Positions 37,137 through 63,721 of a stretch of 64,000 bases of DNA are shown in pieces. A program made the translations under genes and the position numbers. The notes beneath the pieces are model-generated. The model made no database searches. It saw only the letters and a list, made by a program, of their open reading frames with translations, and was not told the DNA's origin. The DNA is from Timema cristinae (Eukaryota > Arthropoda > Insecta > Phasmatodea > Timematidae), in NCBI GenBank assembly GCA_039000515.1, contig JBCFYV010000024.1:15415422-15479421 (forward strand), read 5' to 3'. Every line of letters starts with the position of its first letter. The first letter of the stretch is position 1.

Positions 37137-37218
37137 AACTCAAGACACGGGACGGATGTCCAACGGACCGACTACACGACCCCAGAACACCACACAACAC
37201 TTCCGGGAGTGAACAAAA

Positions 37219-37411
37219 CCCGGTGGCGCCCAAACTACCTCACCAAAGAAAACTACCTCACCAAAGAAGACTACCTCACCAAAGAAGACTACCTCACCAA
37301 AGAAGACTACCTCACCAAAAAAAAAGACTACCTCACCAAAGAAGACTACCTCACCAAAGAAGACTACCTCACCCAAGAAGACTACCTCACCAAAGAAGAC
37401 TACCTCACCAA
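37219..37411. repeat. 18-bp leader repeats after the primer site
   Basis: About ten copies of ACTACCTCACCAAAGAAG, one with extra A residues. The array starts right after GGTGGCGCCCAAA, a second primer-site-like motif. It is open in the gag frame (DYLTKE repeats) but lies before the first good ATG, so it is probably untranslated leader; an N-terminal extension cannot be excluded. Confidence 0.8.
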
Positions 37412-37421
37412 AGTAGACAAG

Positions 37422-38543
37422 ATGGTTATGACTAGAAGTCAAAAGTGTAACAACCCATCGTGTACCCCAGGAGGGGACCGACATTATGTAACCTGCACAA
37501 ACTGCCAAAAGCCCTACCACAACCTTTGCATTGGCTGGGCAGACGAGCCACGTGACATCAATGAACCAGCCTACCGGTGCACCACCTGCACCGAAGCACC
37601 AGTGGAAGTACGGTATTGCCCAGGGTTAACCTGTACTGGAGAAGATGGCCGAGAGGTTGTCTGTGAGGACTGTAGACAATACTACCACTACCAGTGCCTG
37701 GGCTGGAAAAATGAGCCTAGAGACCTCAGGGGCCTATTCTTCCGATGTCCGCCGTGCCAACGGTCCACCTCATCAACTGCCAGCGCACCACCATACCAGC
37801 CGCACCTGACTGCCACCTACCAACGCCAGTGCTCAAGCTCTTACCACCTACCAACTCTACCAGACTTTCACGGTCGAGGGCATGAAGACCCTACTACTTT
37901 TACCCAACGCTGTGAGGTTCAGCTCAGGACCGCTCGAGTAGACCCGCTAGAATGGGTACCTACCACCCAACGGCAGCTTAAAGACACCGCCGCTCAGTGG
38001 TGGAAGCTATATGGCGAATATATAACGACTTGGGAAGAGTTCAAGCAACGACTAACGCACCACTTCGCCAGTACAACCACCATAGCCTCTCTCCACGCAG
38101 AGCTATACGGAAAGGAACAGGCCCAGTCTGAACCCGTCGAGATATTCCTTCGACACAAGGTACGATTGCATCAACGCTTGTCCCCCACAACGCCATCATC
38201 AGAGATAATACCACTGTTAATTGAATTGGTCCGACCAGGACTAAGACCTTTTCTGCGAGCCCCACACCCTCAAGAATTAGAAGAACTTATAACTAGGGCT
38301 GTATCTGTGGAACGTGACCTGGCTAAAAATCCGGCAACAGGGACGACACGCTCCATCAAGACCCCAACAACTGCAGCTGACCCACGACCTCCAAAATGTT
38401 ACCACTGCCCAGGGTACCACTTTCACCGGGACTGCCCAGTGCTAAATCAACGCTACCCAGAGAAAGACAGATCGGGAAACGCCAAGCCAGAGGACAACAG
38501 GGCCCCGCCTCTGGGAGACAGGAACCAGGGCCGCCACCAGTAA
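37422..38543 (+). CDS. gag: Gypsy-1 Gag with two PHD-like fingers, 373 aa
   Basis: Structural polyprotein of the retrotransposon, expected to form the particle that packages its RNA. I start at ATG 37422, the first ATG after the leader repeats. Two Cys/His modules lie at residues 9-56 and 66-112, with identical ligand order C-x4-C-x9/10-C-x2-C-x4-H-x2-C-x16-C-x2-C, a PHD-like C4HC3 pattern. A retrotransposon-gag core follows at about 145-305 (AAQWWKLYGEY, FKQRLTHHF, ELYGKEQ). A zinc knuckle CYHCPGYHFHRDC sits at 326-338, with one residue fewer than the usual CX2CX4HX4C. The frame overlaps pol and is linked to it by a -1 slip site at 38474. The PHD modules are unusual for Gag; the second element has one too. 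Confidence 0.9.
   Translation: MVMTRSQKCNNPSCTPGGDRHYVTCTNCQKPYHNLCIGWADEPRDINEPAYRCTTCTEAPVEVRYCPGLTCTGEDGREVVCEDCRQYYHYQCLGWKNEPRDLRGLFFRCPPCQRSTSSTASAPPYQPHLTATYQRQCSSSYHLPTLPDFHGRGHEDPTTFTQRCEVQLRTARVDPLEWVPTTQRQLKDTAAQWWKLYGEYITTWEEFKQRLTHHFASTTTIASLHAELYGKEQAQSEPVEIFLRHKVRLHQRLSPTTPSSEIIPLLIELVRPGLRPFLRAPHPQELEELITRAVSVERDLAKNPATGTTRSIKTPTTAADPRPPKCYHCPGYHFHRDCPVLNQRYPEKDRSGNAKPEDNRAPPLGDRNQGRHQ
38474..38514 (+). promoter_or_regulatory. Gypsy-1 -1 ribosomal frameshift signal
   Basis: Slippery heptamer G GGA AAC at 38474-38480, with GGA and AAC in the gag frame. A 6-base spacer is followed by a 7-bp stem CCAGAGG (38487-38493) / CCTCTGG (38508-38514) with a 14-base loop. The shift leads directly into the protease frame. 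The same heptamer in the same phase is present in the second element (63702). Confidence 0.85.
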
Positions 38544-39391
38544 TAAACAGCGTCAATCCCTCAACATCCCAACCACTCCCAAGAGTTATGTGCGAAACTC
38601 CTCACGGTCCCCTACTAGCCCTATTAGATACCGGAGCTACTGCTAATTTCATCCAATACCAACAACTCACCCCTACAAACCTGAAGAACTTACTTCCTTT
38701 CCCCACACCAATCCACCTGGCCAAGGTTGGGAGTGACCTTACCATCCGAGGCCAGATAACTTTACCGCTAACCATGCAAACCCTAGAAGCCAACGTCACG
38801 TTCCTGGTGTCCGATGAACTCCGAGAACCACTTATTCTGGGACAACCATGGTTCACAGAACAGAAGGTAATCCTGGACTACGAGAACAGCCGAGTGCTTT
38901 TTGGAAACCAGGGGCGTCATACTCTATACTGGATGCCAAGACTCAATGAGGATCCCCCGCCGGTTCCTCAAGACAAGATCAGACAACACGCCCCAATAGA
39001 ACGTCAAGAACAACTCCTTAGACTACTAGACCAACACCGAGCCGTTTTCAACACTCAGGGACCTCTGCGAAGAACACGCAGCATCAACCATCAAATTCGA
39101 CTCAAGGACAACCAACGGATTATGGTACGGCCTTACCGCTATTCCCCTGCGAAAAACGCGCTAATTGAAGACCAGGTTCAGGAGATGAAAGCCCAGGGGA
39201 TAATAGAACCCGGAAACTCTGAATACAATTCACCCATTGTAATTGTGGAAAAAAAGGACAAAACTCCCCGTTTCTGCATTGATTTCCGACAACTGAACAC
39301 CGCCACTATCGATGTCACTCCCCCGCTGTCAACGTACATGACACTCTTCGAGATTTGGGAGACGCAGAAATATTTACCACCCTCGATATGA
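38475..39391 (+). CDS. pol: Gypsy-1 Pol part 1: protease and start of RT
   Basis: Entered from gag by the -1 slip; the open frame itself runs from 38396. Aspartic protease with the DTGA active site (Asp codon 38627-38629) followed by NFIQ, and the ILGQPWF-like C-terminal block near 38835. RT begins with the region ending GIIEPGNSEYNSPIVIVEKK and RFCIDFRQLN near 39180-39300. After the LST at about 39330 the frame drifts and stops at 39391, while the RT continues one base over in the frame open from 39355. This indicates a one-base indel near 39330-39345. Confidence 0.85.
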
Positions 39392-40755
39392 AATCAGGGT
39401 ACTGGCAGATTCCCTTACACCCCGATTCCAAACCCCTGACTGCTTTCACCACGCCCAACGGAGAAACCTTGCAATTTACAGTTATGCCTTTCGGATTAAA
39501 GGGAGCCCCGAGTACTTTTCAGCGACTGATGAGTCAAGAAGTGTTAGCAGGGTACACCGGCCAGTTCTGTCTCGCCTACCTTGACGACGTGATAATCTAC
39601 TCAAAGACATGGGATGAGCACCTCAACCACTTGAGCAAGGTTTTAGAAAGATTTGAGCTCCACCAACTGACCTGCAATCTGGAAAAATGCCAGTTCGGCA
39701 AGACTGAGTTGGAATACCTTGGCCATATCGTTTCTAGCCAAGGAAACGCCCCACAACCACAGACGATCAAAGCAATCACGGAAGCCCCAACACCAAGAAA
39801 CCGTAAACAGCTCCGACAACTACTGGGCCTCTGCAACTGGTTACGAGAATTCGTGCCCCAAATGGCGGAACTAACAGCACCTCTCACCGAACTTCTAAGA
39901 ACCAAATCCCGGTGGATGTGGAACTCCCAAACAGAAACCGCTCTACACACACTCAAAGAAGCCTTCAGAGACCTACCACCCTTAAGTCGTCCCGATCCAT
40001 CACGAACCTTTACCCTACAAACTGACGCTAGCGGGATTGGACTAGGGGCAGTACTGTACCAAGAAGATGATGCGGGCAAACGAATCATCAGCCATACCAG
40101 CGCGAAGCTAACCCCTACAGAGCAACGGTACCATAGCAACGAGCAGGAGTGCCTCGCTATCGTCTGGGCCATCAAGAGGTATAGACATTACCTGGAAGAT
40201 AAACCTTTCATACTACGCACGGATAACCGAGCTCTCACCTGGCTGAACACGATGAAAGACCAACGGACCAAGCTGACGAGATGGGCACTCTTGCTCCAAG
40301 AGTTTCAATTTTCCCTGGAACACTGCCCGGGAAAACAGAACGATCTACCTGACGCGTTATCACGCCAACCCGACAGCGAGAACACCAGTTCAGAGACTCA
40401 AGACTGGGACCGGATGACCCCGCCCTCGGTCACAGGACTAGCACCACCCGAACCCGATGCACTACTAGTCCTACAGAACCAAGATGCACCTCTACATGAG
40501 CTAGTCAAGACGGAACAAAGACAGGATACAGAGATCCAAACTCAAGTTAACCGTTGGAAGGCTCTGGATACCCAAACTCGACCACCCACCAAAACAACCG
40601 ACGCTCGGTTCTGGGATGAGCACTATGTCAAGGGAGACAATATCTGGAGACGCGAAGAAAGGGAAGGACCATGGAAACTCATTGTTCCAGTTCAAATCCG
40701 ACAACAGGTTATTTGGACATACCACGACCACCCTCACGCAGGGCACCCGGGATAA
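39355..40755 (+). CDS. pol: Gypsy-1 Pol part 2: RT, RNase H, integrase zinc-binding start
   Basis: Reverse transcriptase palm with FTTLDMKSGYWQIPL (first catalytic Asp), MPFGLKGAPSTFQRLM and the YLDD box (39577-39588). Then comes the connection domain and RNase H with LQTDASGIGLGAVL, SNEQECLAIVWA and LRTDNRALTWL, supplying the acidic triad. The part before the stop reads YHDHPHAGHPG, the two His of the integrase zinc-binding HHCC module. An in-frame TAA at 40753-40755 cuts the frame; reading on without a shift reaches the two Cys (NCILC) near 40830. Confidence 0.9.
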   Translation: MGDAEIFTTLDMKSGYWQIPLHPDSKPLTAFTTPNGETLQFTVMPFGLKGAPSTFQRLMSQEVLAGYTGQFCLAYLDDVIIYSKTWDEHLNHLSKVLERFELHQLTCNLEKCQFGKTELEYLGHIVSSQGNAPQPQTIKAITEAPTPRNRKQLRQLLGLCNWLREFVPQMAELTAPLTELLRTKSRWMWNSQTETALHTLKEAFRDLPPLSRPDPSRTFTLQTDASGIGLGAVLYQEDDAGKRIISHTSAKLTPTEQRYHSNEQECLAIVWAIKRYRHYLEDKPFILRTDNRALTWLNTMKDQRTKLTRWALLLQEFQFSLEHCPGKQNDLPDALSRQPDSENTSSETQDWDRMTPPSVTGLAPPEPDALLVLQNQDAPLHELVKTEQRQDTEIQTQVNRWKALDTQTRPPTKTTDARFWDEHYVKGDNIWRREEREGPWKLIVPVQIRQQVIWTYHDHPHAGHPG

Positions 40756-40979
40756 GACGAGACGACACGAGCCATTCAGCGAGGCTACACCTGGAAAGGC
40801 CTCCGAACGGAAGTCAGCAACTACGTTCGTAACTGCATACTCTGTGCCTGTCGTAAGACCGGGGGGTATCAAGGGAGAGAGCCTCTAAGACCCCGTCAAC
40901 CACAACGCCCCTGGAAAGTGGTAGCCTTAGACCTCATGGGGCCATACCCCGAAGTCGCAGAGGAAAGAAGTTCATCCTA
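40756..40979 (+). CDS. pol: Gypsy-1 Pol part 3: integrase Cys pair and first catalytic Asp
   Basis: Same frame as part 2 after the stop. It contains YTWKGL, the Cys pair CILC and the first DDE Asp in ALDLMGPYP (GAC at 40930-40932). The frame ends with TAG at 40977-40979, and integrase resumes in another frame. A single-base indel near 40950-40965 explains this. Confidence 0.75.
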
Positions 40980-41897
40980 GTGATTACGGATCTCTTCTCA
41001 AGATGGGTAGAAGTATTTCCACTCGCGTCAACAGAGGTCAGACAGATAATCCAGACGATGGAACAACAATTCTTCCCACGATGGGGATATCCAAAACATC
41101 TCCTGTCCGACAATGGTCCACAGTTCATTAGCCGAGCTTGGGCGAACGCCTGTCAAAAGTGGGATGTCGAAGCCTGGACAACCCCAATCTACCACCCCCA
41201 AGCCAACCCCACGGAAAGAAGGAACCAGGAACTAAAGAAGGGAATCCGACTCCAAATCTCGGAGAATCATCGAGAATGGGATACCTTCCTGCCTATGATC
41301 GCCTTCAATCTACGATGCCGCAAGAATGGGGCCACCGGAATGTCTCCGAGTGAACTACTACTTGGCCGAACGCTATACAGGCCCGGGGAGTGGAGATTTG
41401 AAACCCCAGTACGAGAGCAGGAAGACAACGAGAACCCCAGCCAAGGATCCACCCAAAGAGAAGAACGGGCGCGAGTAAATCAAGCAAATTACCAACAACG
41501 ATACACCCAACCTCCAGCACGGCCCGCCAAACCCTTCCAGAACGGTGATCTGGTGCTAGTTCGAACCCAACCACTCTCTAATGCAACAGAAGCCTACTAC
41601 GCCGGCTTTGCCCCCAAATGGGAAGGACCCTACCCGGTGAGCAAACGAAGAGGAGGGGTCTACTGGGTTACCTACCCAAATGGTCGATCCAAGAAAATAC
41701 ACAGGGGACAACTACGTCCTGCACCCCCTGGTGAAAACACCGGGAAACCGCAGCTACCCAAACTACTCACAACCATGGACCCCGCACCCAATAACACCGA
41801 GGGAACAAAAGGACTGGACCCTCCCCTACCAAATAGTTCTGGATGGAGTACCAGACTGCGACCTCGACGACCTCCAATCCCTCCCAAGACAGGGTGA
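40980..41897 (+). CDS. pol: Gypsy-1 Pol part 4: integrase core and GPY/F domain
   Basis: Continues the integrase core: ITDLFSRWVEVFP, second catalytic Asp in LLSDNGPQF (GAC 41109-41111) and Glu in NPTERRNQE (GAA 41214-41216). Asp to Glu is 35 positions, one fewer than usual; the HPQANPTER block seems to lack one residue of the common HPQxNGQTER, possibly a codon deletion. The C-terminal part has KWEGPYPVSKRRGGVYWV and KKIHRGQLRP, the GPY/F module typical of many Gypsy integrases. No chromodomain is visible. The frame ends at 41897 in a Pro/Arg-rich tail. The first codon given (GTG) is not a real start. Confidence 0.9.
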   Translation: MITDLFSRWVEVFPLASTEVRQIIQTMEQQFFPRWGYPKHLLSDNGPQFISRAWANACQKWDVEAWTTPIYHPQANPTERRNQELKKGIRLQISENHREWDTFLPMIAFNLRCRKNGATGMSPSELLLGRTLYRPGEWRFETPVREQEDNENPSQGSTQREERARVNQANYQQRYTQPPARPAKPFQNGDLVLVRTQPLSNATEAYYAGFAPKWEGPYPVSKRRGGVYWVTYPNGRSKKIHRGQLRPAPPGENTGKPQLPKLLTTMDPAPNNTEGTKGLDPPLPNSSGWSTRLRPRRPPIPPKTG

Positions 41898-59288: not shown

Positions 59289-59441
59289 AACTTCTCCTGA
59301 ACAGAAGAAGAGAAGAGTGACCGGCTGAAGCCATCAGAGAACCCAAAGCCTAAACACTCACCACTTTTCCGAGTTCAGAAAAACTCGGTGGCGCCCTAAA
59401 AAAAAAAAAAAAAAAAAAAGCCAAGACGTACCCGACATCAG
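59289..59441 (+). other. Gypsy-2 leader with A-run
   Basis: Contains a second GGTGGCGCCCT motif near 59389, as in Gypsy-1 near 37220. An uninterrupted run of about 20 A at 59399-59419 stands where Gypsy-1 has its 18-bp repeats. No good ATG remains before the PHD region. Confidence 0.6.
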
Positions 59442-59529
59442 TGCGGTTTTCCCACCTGCCCCGGAAGAGGAGAAAGAACAATCTGCTGTGATAAGTGCGA
59501 GGACTGGTATCACTTCCTCTGCTTAAACT
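59442..59529 (+). pseudogene. gag: Gypsy-2 gag fragment 1: first six ligands of PHD-like finger
   Basis: Reads C-x4-C-x9-C-x2-C-x4-H-x2-C (CDKCEDWYHFLC near 59492-59523), identical in spacing to both Gypsy-1 modules, then is cut by the transposon at 59530. The last two Cys lie after the insertion (ICQPC near 62939-62953). Excluding the insert and one AACT copy, the spacing between sixth and seventh ligand is 16 residues, the same as in Gypsy-1. The start codon region is missing or mutated. Confidence 0.8.
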
Positions 59530-59726
59530 GAATCGTTTTTTGGAGAAAGGTCACATATCCTTAAAGTTAAATTTTTCAGGAGAGACAAAAAACTACGTAA
59601 CTAATTCCGGACTAAGGTGACATCCAAACCAAAATTCACCAATCAAAAGCACATGAAAATACATGTTTGGACATTAGAATAAAGTCAAAATGTAAAACAA
59701 TTTTTATATAAAAAATTGATAAAAAC

Positions 59727-59744
59727 AAAGGACATGTGTCCTTT
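59727..59744. promoter_or_regulatory. Subterminal palindrome of the transposon
   Basis: AAAGGACA TG TGTCCTTT, a perfect 8-bp inverted repeat with a 2-base centre, followed by CAATAATAAAT. Related half-sites lie near the other end (62718, 62863). Candidate transposase-binding sites. Confidence 0.55.
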
Positions 59745-60033
59745 CAATAATAAATAGGACATTCTTGATAAATCTTAAGTGTTTCTTGATATTTAACTCA
59801 TTTTTACAACAGCGCAATGTAAATATTTGTAAAAAAAGTCCATTACAATAAGTTGATCAATATAATATTAATAAAAAAATGGGCGTTTATTAACCAATTT
59901 GTCAATATTAGGCAACATTAAACACAGAAATCTAGAATAAGACTGTAATTCTTCTTAAATAATCACATTGAAACTTAAATACACAGTAATTTTGCACTTT
60001 ATGTTAGGCCTACTTTAGTATTTTGAGAGTTCA

Positions 60034-61696
60034 CTATGCATCTTTATCATCATCATCATGGTTCACTGTTGGCCATTCAAGTATTTCTTCATAAAACCCT
60101 AGATGCTCTGAGTTTACATACTGCACTACTTTCCTAATATCATCTATCTTTTTCCTGTTGATTGGATTTTTGTCCTGATAAGCTTTAGATGTTGGCAACT
60201 TTACTTTCCGGATAGTGCTGTCATCAGTTTTGTGAAGGAGCCTGAATGTGTATTGTTGCAGCCCATCAATGAAATCCAAGGCACAGACATTTCCTGGAGA
60301 TTTTGCATCGAATACAAGCATCGAGTACTGTGAAATTCCAAATGATACTTTTTTATCCTTTGGAACATTACTACCGAGAGATTCTACAGAGAGTGTGGTT
60401 TTCTTGTAATGTTCCTGCCACCAAGTTTTAAAATCCAAAATATCTGCAGTGTTAATCACATTGACACAGAAGTTACCTTTCTTGCTTGCCTCTGCTATGT
60501 AACGTGCATACTGATCAGGAGTGTAAACTCTGTCAATCTTCTTCAGATACCGCTTTATTACTCCAAAATCTCTGTCACAAGGGAGGAAACTGTGTCCCCT
60601 CACAGGAAAGTACTGAAAAATCTTTGAGAATCGACCTGTAACTGTCAATGCAGAAAGAAAACGAGCAACAGTATGGTTACGGATTTGGCCTCCACAGCTG
60701 TCTGAGAACACGTGCAACACTTTTACTTTTTTAGGTAGAACATAATCAATATAGTGTTTTATGAAAGAACACACCTCATTTGGACCTTTTCTAGCCAAAC
60801 CCTCATGGTAAACATACATTTCACTTTTCCCTGTAACGACATTCTGAATGCAAAAGTTATTTACCCACAACTGTCTGAAATAGAAAATTTCCTGCACAGG
60901 GACATGTGGCAATGGAAGATTCTGCATATAATCAAAGACAATAGCGGACACTTGGTCATCACGTTTTCCGACTTCACGTATTTCATTTAATTTGTTGTAA
61001 AACTTTTTCGATCTTCTGACATGAACAACTTTTTCGGCAACTGCTACTCTTTTTGCACGATCATTAAGTGCGGGGCTTTTAATCTTTACACTAAGTTGTT
61101 CACAAGTGGAACAAACATCTTTTTGAGGCCTTCCAAATTTATAACCGTAGTTTTCCTTGAAATATGTGTAGTAAAAGTTGTACTTCACTTTTGCTTCAGG
61201 GTGCTTCTGTACAAAAAGCTGGTACATTTTAGTCACATTGAGTTGAGAGTCAAGGTAGACTTGATCAGATCCTGAATAGTGAGATTGTTTTGTGGGGAAA
61301 CATTCAATATGGTTCTTCACCAGTTCTACGATTTCTCCTGGAATAGAATGAGATTTTGGATTGAGACCTCTTCCATCCCTTGGAGACCTCCCTTCAAGAA
61401 GAAGTCCTGATATACGTCGAATACGTTTTTCACCTATATTGAGCAAATTTATTAAAGCTTTCTTACAAACGGGAACTCTTGTGCCTCCATTCAAAACATG
61501 ATAACAGAAGCCACTTTTTCTTGGTTTCTTCTTTTCAACAGGACCATGGGATCGTCGGCGGGCTATGGGCCTGACTTCGATGAGCCCTTGTAAAAAAATA
61601 TCTTGCTCATCCTTCGAAGTGAAATCATTATAGAAGTGTGTGAATATGGTCAACTTTTCTTCTTCAGATAATGCATCTAAACATTTCTTGTGGCAT
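60034..61696 (-). CDS. DUF7869-type transposase-like protein, exon 2
   Basis: Main exon of a two-exon gene (protein 618 aa including exon 1; this exon supplies residues 65-618). The open frame extends upstream of the first TTG to an acceptor TTTTTAG at 61697. Visible features, numbered on the full protein: a Cys-rich start at the junction (C64, C66, C70), a Cys pair CSTC at 260-263, FDYMQNLPLP with D320, FSDSCGGQIRNHTVARF with D397, and GHSFLPCDRDFG with H433 and D439. These are the hallmark blocks of DUF7869-type proteins. I infer an RNase H-like catalytic core with D320, D397 and D439 as candidate acids. The C-terminus is acidic (NHDDDDKDA). The frame is fully intact, suggesting recent activity. 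Confidence 0.85.
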
Positions 61697-62358
61697 CTAA
61701 AAACAATAAAAGTAATGATTATATTTTATAGTAGTTTTTAATTCTGTTAATTTCCTGTGTTAACACATGCTTCAAAAATAAAAAATAAACCTCCATAAAT
61801 TTCTCAGTTACTGTTTAACTGATGCAAACATATATGCAACAATGCCATGTTTACATGCCTTACAGTTAGACGTGTGCTAATAGAGTTTTTTTTATCGAAT
61901 AAAATGGCAAATTTCATATAGTACAAATCGAATAACTTAACAAAGTCAGTTTTAATGGAAATTATTTTTATTATTTTTATTTATTTCAAAAACAGTGTTT
62001 TATATTTAATTATTGGAAGAGAGCAAAGAATACCACAAAACAATATTTGACACCTCTTATAATTTTTCTTTGGTTTCACACACCTTAAAGCATATCCAGG
62101 TTCGTCACCCCTTACATTTCTTTCATGTTTGAAAACCTTAAAATGTTAAATTTACTTGACACCCCTTAAAATCTCTATTCTCTGTCTGGGTCGCCTCCCT
62201 GTCTGGCTATCTAACAACAAACTGACAATGCACACTCATTAATGTTGACCTTGGAAACATACTTCCAAGCCCCTTACCCTCATTTTCATGACTTGAAAGA
62301 TGGTAAAGTAGCAATTATGTCTAACCTACTCACTAGACTATGGACGTTCATTAATATT

Positions 62359-62395
<37 letters not shown>

Positions 62396-62446
62396 CATCA
62401 TCATCATCATCAACGCATAAGCTAACATTTGCTGTTTAGTACTTAC
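61697..62446 (-). other. Intron of the transposase-like gene, 750 bp
   Basis: Donor G|GTAAGTAC at 62446 and acceptor TTTTTAG|A at 61697, phase 2: the split codon GG|A gives Gly. It contains a (ATT)n/(ATC)n microsatellite at 62356-62410. Confidence 0.8.
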
Positions 62447-62640
62447 CCACATATTGTGCCCATCTGCTTTTCAGCAATAACAGTCCCACTATAGCTCTGG
62501 TGTTGTTCTCCTCTTAAGTTCGCTTTCTTTATGAGGCGAGCTTTATATTTATCTTTATGTCTATTTCTTCGTTTTCTTTTTCCTTGTTCTACACCATTTT
62601 CTTCGACAGAAGACACCGACTCACTTCCAGTAGCATCCAT
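62447..62640 (-). CDS. DUF7869-type transposase-like protein, exon 1
   Basis: Starts at ATG 62640 and gives 64 codons plus two bases. The peptide begins MDATGSESVSSVEENG, then is very basic (KRKRRNRHKDKYKARLIKK), a likely nuclear localisation or DNA-contact segment. It ends in GTIC just before the junction, where exon 2 adds further Cys residues (C-x-C-x3-C). The strong donor and matching phase make the join convincing. The 256 bp between the ATG and the terminal repeat should hold the promoter; I see no clear TATA. Confidence 0.8.
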
Positions 62641-62896
62641 CTTTGTGAGCTAACTGAATTTTGCAAGGCATGATGGGAGCTGTAGACAGCCATTTAGTAT
62701 TGAAAAGGCATATGTCCAGGACAAGTGCCCTTTCAAAAACAAAGTAAAACTTGTATTATTTTTATCTCAGTGGCTAACACTAGGAAATGTGCCAGTTATT
62801 CACAGAAATGTCCGCAGACGTGCAGAGAGTAATGTAACGCATATAACTCAATTTCGCAAAAAAGTGGACAAGTGACCTTTCAATAATAAACCATTC

Positions 62897-63721
62897 AACT
62901 GGGAAGAAAAAGACAGGGATACCACCGGGCTCCAATTCATCTGCCAACCCTGCAATGAAAAGACGGCCGCTTAGCACGACGAACTTGAAGAACTCCGCCG
63001 AAAGGCAAGCCAATCCCCCGCCATACTAGCCACCAATCCCACGCAGCCCACCTTCCAGCCTATTCTCCCCGGATTCTCAGGCCTGGACCATGAAGACCCG
63101 GCAGCATTCCTGAGGAAGTGCGAAGCAATCCTCCAGGACAGCAACACACCCAAGGAGCTATGGACAACGCTAGTGAAGGAAAGATTGAATCAAGACGCCG
63201 TGCAGTGGTGGAAATACTATGAGGGATATTCCAACACTTGGGGAAGAACTTCAAAAAAGGCTTCAAGAACGATTCGACTCTCCACCACTGAGAGTCAAAC
63301 TCCAAGCGAAGCTATATGGGGAAGCCCAGACAGCCAGAGAATCTACCGACCACTTCATTCTCAGAAAGATGAGACTGTACAAGCGATTCTTCCCCACCGC
63401 TCCCGACGAGCAAATTCTACCCCTCATAAGTGAGCTCCTCCACCCCACCATACGGCCATTTATCACCTCCGTCCCACCCACTACCATAGACCAATTACTA
63501 GAGCGAGCTCAGGCAGTGCAACAAGATATACTCCCATCCTCCCCTCATGAGCCGCCCAGGGCCCCTTCCCCTCCGAAATACCCGACCCCCTCCTCAATGT
63601 CACTTCTGTCCCGCCCAGCATTTCCACCGAGAGTGCCCCGTACTCCTCGCAAGAAGAACCATGGACAGACCACACGACGCACAAACCACACAACCTAGCG
63701 CGGGAAACGGAACCAGGGGAT
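62897..63721 (+). pseudogene. gag: Gypsy-2 gag fragment 2: PHD end, gag core, zinc knuckle
   Basis: Resumes the PHD finger (FICQPC) but soon hits a TAG near 62970. The gag core follows in other frames: PGFSGLDHEDPAAFLRKCE and DAVQWWKYYEGY near 63066-63230, then RLQERF, KLYGEAQ and ILPLISELLHPTIRPF in the frame open from 63219, and the zinc knuckle CHFCPAQHFHREC near 63598-63636 in a third frame. The knuckle has the same CX2CX3HX4C spacing as Gypsy-1. At least two frameshifts and one stop make it non-functional as read. Confidence 0.85.

Follow-up and report, generated by a model that had tools for sequence, protein, structure and literature searches.

Segment 59530-62896 of the Timema cristinae DNA analyzed here is, with high confidence, a class II (cut-and-paste) DNA transposon, and its single gene encodes a transposase of the DUF7869 family (DUF, domain of unknown function) with a triad of three aspartates (DDD). 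The analyzed stretch, hereafter the window, comprises 64,000 nucleotides (assembly GCA_039000515.1, contig JBCFYV010000024.1, positions 15,415,422 to 15,479,421 of the forward strand). This confidence applies to the transposon and to its transposase; the superfamily name carries a lower confidence of its own. An initial annotation of this DNA had proposed that the gene is the transposase of a cut-and-paste element, a proposal supported by the genomic copies, the 4-bp duplications, the predicted RNase H-like fold and the triad described below. A domain of unknown function can accordingly be read as a transposase, and its mechanism would be an ordinary one.

Element boundaries and empty sites

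The element, its ends and the host sequence on either side are as follows.

59530-62896, no strand: whole transposon, 3367 bp, delimited by terminal inverted repeats, target site duplication, empty sites and further copies
59526-59529, no strand: target site duplication AACT, left copy
62897-62900, no strand: target site duplication AACT, right copy
59530-59560, plus strand: left terminal inverted repeat, 31 bp, 24/31 against the right one
62866-62896, minus strand: right terminal inverted repeat, 31 bp, 24/31 against the left one
59401-59529, plus strand: left flank, Gypsy gag (PHD-finger part), broken by the element
62901-63200, plus strand: right flank, in which the same Gypsy gag resumes

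The termini begin with GAA and, when read inward, the two 31-bp ends are identical at 24 positions, which gives the segment the terminal inverted repeats of a cut-and-paste DNA transposon. When the two end regions were sampled 20,000 times under a first-order Markov model, this match was never reached (mean 9.1, maximum 19), and both the coordinates and this control agree with the initial description of a 3367-bp segment with an AACT duplication and 24/31 repeats. Fusing the flanks at a single AACT creates an in-frame zinc finger, CCDKCEDWYHFLCLNWEEKDRDTTGLQFICQPC, and the insertion is precise. The interrupted host sequence was recognized as a Gypsy gag because in a second Gypsy copy of the window (37209-41897) a retrotransposon gag domain and PHD fingers exceed the Pfam cut-offs. 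That second copy also has domains for reverse transcriptase, RNase H and integrase as well as two capsid matches slightly under the Pfam cut-offs; its domains lie in separate open frames, and the Gypsy element that the transposon interrupts is of the same type.

Empty sites in related Gypsy copies had been suggested as a check, and indeed they were found at every other locus examined. A search of the same genome with the left flank yielded 40 matches, and 10 of these loci were fetched, one being the window copy itself. All nine others (9/9, some of which may duplicate one another) run from one AACT straight into the right flank. Seven match the right flank at 71-78 of 80 bases, L057 matches at 13/13 up to the contig end, and in L058 the continuation is visible with a 1-bp shift that leaves an ungapped count of 24/80. 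L053 and L054 each have one mismatch within the first two bases past AACT.

Copies elsewhere in the genome

A copy search of the whole 1.29 Gb genome, likewise suggested by the initial annotation, identified at least 14 further full-length copies at Kimura two-parameter (K2P) distances of 0.39-0.78% from the window copy, together with internally deleted copies bearing 4-bp duplications of their own. Older copies lie at K2P distances of 3.7%, 8.2% (two copies) and 22%. The element has been mobile in the recent past, and we infer transposition. Since such near-identical copies coexist in one genome, the activity of the family is directly testable. Five of the copies (L015, L016, L017, L018 and L020) have one common flank and two more (L019 and L021) have another; therefore, the 14 full-length copies correspond to nine distinct sites.

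Both ends could be placed in 29 of the 39 fetched loci, and identical 4-bp flanks are present in 19 of the 29. After these 19 loci were collapsed, and with the window copy and a split copy (L044/L045) added, there are 16 distinct sites with a perfect 4-bp duplication: AATT at 11, AACT at two, and ATTT, AAAT and ATAT at one each. A target duplication of fixed length was found in independent copies (16 sites), alongside the empty sites (9/9). A genome search with the terminal-repeat pattern, allowing one mismatch, returned 51 ends (known copies included), whereas the reversed control pattern returned none. Large internal deletions were found in L027, L028, L029, L036, L037 and L039, each with its own perfect duplication, as expected if the enzyme of the complete copies moved them.

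An assembly artefact or chance repeats might be invoked, given that the end repeats are imperfect and that duplicate copies on small contigs are perhaps redundant assembly. We regard this as next to negligible, as the end match was never reached in the Markov samples and the 16 distinct insertion sites and the empty sites occur in the same assembly.

Several copies have peculiarities of their own. The five copies sharing one flank lie on four contigs (C798 twice, C34, C1182 and C3940) and represent either one insertion multiplied by host duplication or redundant contigs; the frame of L015 is open, and L016, L017, L018 and L020 have differing single-base indels in the gene that are perhaps sequencing errors. 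In L038 (G000:C935:71357728-71363220), a derived copy, a tandem array contains dozens of repeats of a 58-bp formerly coding piece (element positions 835-892). The split copy L044/L045 (G000:C7570:690839-702418) is a young copy with an insert of ~7.8 kb at element positions 2909-2914, where a 6-bp overlap resembles a 6-bp target duplication; the identical split is present in a copy on C4677.

The DUF7869 gene, its predicted product and its relatives

No gene other than the DUF7869 gene was found in the element. Its parts, the codons of its candidate catalytic residues (with their conservation in alignments A1 and A2) and the subterminal motifs are listed here.

62447-62640, minus strand: transposase gene exon 1, start ATG at 62640
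61697-62446, minus strand: intron, 750 bp, GT-AG, as also in 16/18 other full-length copies
60034-61696, minus strand: transposase gene exon 2, holding the DUF7869/RNase H-like core
60931-60933, minus strand: codon of D320, first candidate catalytic aspartate, end of strand 1; 70/70 A1, 54/54 A2
60700-60702, minus strand: codon of D397, second candidate catalytic aspartate; 70/70 A1, 54/54 A2
60574-60576, minus strand: codon of D439, third candidate catalytic aspartate, in the GHSFLPCDRDFG block; 69/70 A1, 53/54 A2
59730-59754, minus strand: 25-bp end motif, subterminal copy 23/25, candidate transposase-binding site
62693-62717, plus strand: 25-bp end motif, subterminal copy 20/25, putative binding site
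62719-62743, minus strand: 25-bp end motif, subterminal copy 22/25, putative binding site

As first annotated, there is one gene of two exons with canonical splice sites and a 618-codon frame; the intron is GT-AG and the spliced frame has no internal stop. The assignment to DUF7869 was also borne out, with PF25273 scoring 31.2 bits against a gathering cut-off of 26 and no other Pfam family above its cut-off. The closest protein match is from Timema poppense (99% over 90%). The gene had further been called intact, which holds for its reading frame and less so for its residue 403 (codon 60682-60684): this is I in the window copy, giving GGQIRN, versus GGQNRN in L009, L011, L012, L013, L014 and L015. 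Because I403 replaces a nearly invariant N, the window copy, although open in frame, may not be fully active or may itself be impaired. Among 19 full-length copies compared (the window copy and 18 others), seven have the start codon and GT-AG sites in place and a 618-codon frame that is open throughout (the window copy, L009, L011, L012, L013, L015 and L019); L014 has an open 618-codon frame with an AT donor, L019 is missing the GGQ motif, and the gene is broken in 11 of the 19.

The predicted structure of the protein has the RNase H-like core of DDD/E transposases and matches integrases and transposases, the outcome that the initial annotation had looked for in a structure prediction. When the core was searched alone with Foldseek, 13 PDB matches fell below 0.001, with foamy virus integrase on top. 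On this model, the evidence says that DUF7869 would be a transposase of the retroviral-integrase kind. D320, D397 and D439, earlier named as candidate catalytic residues, are correctly positioned and nearly invariant, and from their conservation they would carry out catalysis. In a Foldseek search against viral models, a Gag-Pol fragment and a subunit of a herpesvirus terminase were the two matches below 0.001, which we read as reflecting the common RNase H-like fold. NurA and terminase nucleases are present in the Foldseek lists and absent from the best 50 VIA matches listed; absence of a family from fold lists does not count as its exclusion. A sequence search of solved structures, with a 539-amino-acid open frame as query, had no match up to an E value of 10, and an NCBIfam search had none. 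Pattern matches numbered 9 in viral contigs and 30 in bacterial and archaeal genome contigs, none of them confirmed as relatives.

The subterminal motifs noted previously were also recovered. Taken from the inner portion of the right terminal repeat, the 25-bp motif occurs five times, never more than 230 bp from an end: twice on the left, at 23/25 and 19/25 (the latter being the left repeat itself), and three times on the right, at 20/25, 22/25 and, for the motif as defined, 25/25. The four matches at 19-23/25 exceed the best match in 40 shuffled elements, which averaged 16 and never surpassed 18. All five motifs are kept at ≥18/25 in five of the six deleted copies, and L039 keeps four. In the mechanism that we propose, the transposase would bind several of these sites at each end and, once bound, would pair the two ends, after which a D320/D397/D439 metal site would excise the element. 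Insertion would proceed via a 4-bp staggered cut, with AATT preferred, and host repair would convert the stagger into the target duplication; internally deleted copies with both ends could be mobilized in trans.

A protein search of the genome gave at least 83 DUF7869 matches, and at least 85 with a second-family protein as query, both of them lower bounds in which one copy may yield several matches. The loci examined for ends were those of the second family (nine copies), L051 and L050. The second family, represented by L048, has a protein ~30% identical to that of the element (41.9 bits against the DUF7869 profile) within a 3301-bp element that has 24-bp ends matching at 23/24 and ATTT on both sides. 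Its ends were read in nine copies (L048 and L049, and the other seven through end pieces), with a perfect 4-bp duplication in 7/9 at six distinct sites (AATT at four, ATTT at one and ATAT at one, the last being weak as it sits inside an AT repeat). L051 is 47% identical, with ends matching at 20/24 and AAGT on both sides. Terminal repeats at other DUF7869 loci, whose lack would have counted against the initial reading, are thus present in the second family and L051, though not above background at L050. The second family has relatives among insects and fish (Phoxinus, Carassius, Labeo and Salmo), and the database proteins matched (309 for the element protein, 332 for the second family) are from insects and fish where named. 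One record, P0123, named for a U5 small nuclear ribonucleoprotein (snRNP) 116-kDa N-terminal domain that is fused in it to the second DUF7869 family, is probably a chimeric gene model spanning a transposon. The link of DUF7869 to mobility extends past the family of the window copy, as it covers both that family and the second one as well as the locus L051; before a DUF7869 gene annotated as "uncharacterised" is treated as a host gene, terminal repeats should be looked for around it.

Several results do count against reading the element as a transposon with its own transposase. No perfect duplication is present at ten of the 29 loci, most of which are diverged copies or have one end misplaced by the script, and the young copy L013 has unequal flanks (AATT/ACTT). 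Two of the nine second-family copies likewise lack one; L062/L063 would conform to AATT with a single G lost, and L049 is off by one base. The end repeats of L050 match at 17/24, which is not above background. Residue 403, which is N in 66/70 rows of A1 and 53/54 of A2 and thus nearly invariant within the GGQN-(R/K/N)-N motif, is replaced in the window copy, the sole A2 exception. Finally, the nuclease NurA is among the 13 core matches, and the full model had no match below 0.001 in PDB. The element might alternatively be a passenger, its DUF7869 gene being cargo or a domesticated host gene and its ends being moved by an unrelated transposase. Many DUF7869 proteins are indeed recorded as uncharacterised, some on chromosome-sized contigs, and the broken genes noted above would fit as well. 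However, no second gene was found in the element, the two DUF7869 families share the same 4-bp, mostly AATT, duplication in spite of ~30% identity and differing ends, and the predicted fold is of the integrase type with a conserved DDD triad, such that we consider a passenger highly improbable.

Comparison with known superfamilies

Reading the gene as the transposase of the element, we compared it with known superfamilies by anatomy and by published descriptions. The element probably belongs in or adjoining the Sola superfamily, and its anatomy suggests Sola2 as the most likely group. Sola was reportedly described by Bao et al. in 2009.

Retroviral integrases (rve) and the Gypsy-integrase-related Ginger elements resemble the element in core fold and catalytic residue order and provide the best structural matches, and Ginger1 makes 4-bp duplications as well. 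Retroviral integrases carry DDE, whereas the element has DDD, no Pfam rve match and no PDB sequence match; Ginger and other integrase-derived elements were ruled out on the lack of an rve domain and on DDD rather than DDE. Zator has a 3-bp duplication, versus 4 bp here, and the termini of EnSpm/Chapaev start with CAC, versus GAA here; neither was retained. The comparison of duplications took in Tc1/mariner, piggyBac, P, Academ, Kolobok, IS3EU, Ginger1/2 and IS481EU. Tc1/mariner (Mos1, SETMAR) duplicates the 2-bp TA, unlike the 4 bp here, and no solved mariner transposase was matched by sequence. piggyBac and Kolobok (PMC9587614) duplicate TTAA, which occurs at 0/16 sites, P duplicates 7-8 bp, Academ 3 bp versus 4 bp here, and IS3EU 6 bp. 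Ginger1/2 and IS481EU can make 4 bp.

DUF7869 elements might instead form a superfamily apart from Sola, merely alike in DDD and 4-bp duplications. The Sola placement came from anatomy and descriptions and not from any Sola sequence, which counts against it; the available portions of the Sola literature held no motif or sequence fit for comparison. Pfam assigns DUF7869 no function, a search of the available literature found no mention of it, and the available portions of the literature on new superfamilies and AATT duplications held no description of this family. We nevertheless find a separate superfamily unlikely, as the triad, the 4-bp AT-rich duplications and the size fit published Sola and Sola2, the duplications of Tc1/mariner, piggyBac, P, Academ, Kolobok and IS3EU differ, and Ginger1/2 and IS481EU are of the integrase/IS481 kind, IS481EU with ends TNT or TGT rather than GAA. 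In its fuller form, that of an independent transposase superfamily widespread in animals, recently mobile in insects, present in fish too, AATT-preferring and with arrays of 25-bp sites at each end, it is slightly more doubtful still.

For the preferred placement in or beside Sola, the likenesses are the DDD triad, the 4-bp AT-rich duplication, the terminal inverted repeats and the size. Sola, one of 20 named DDD/E superfamilies (PMC9587614), has DDD transposases, terminal inverted repeats, 4-bp duplications and lengths of mostly 2-9 kb (PMC10741241). Here, D320/D397/D439 are present in at least 69/70 and at least 53/54 rows, and both DUF7869 families have 4-bp duplications. The 4-bp duplications of dictyostelid Sola2 are rich in A and T, reading AWWT in one species and ATAT, AAAT or ATTT in another (PMC3627910); those of the element are similarly AT-rich, its two AACT sites deviating from AWWT. 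The Sola2 examples differ in their amoebozoan hosts, one 888-amino-acid transposase and Fanzor genes (PMC3627910). As for Pfam PF25273, the element gene is a member of a family for which Pfam names no function and which is here tied to transposons.
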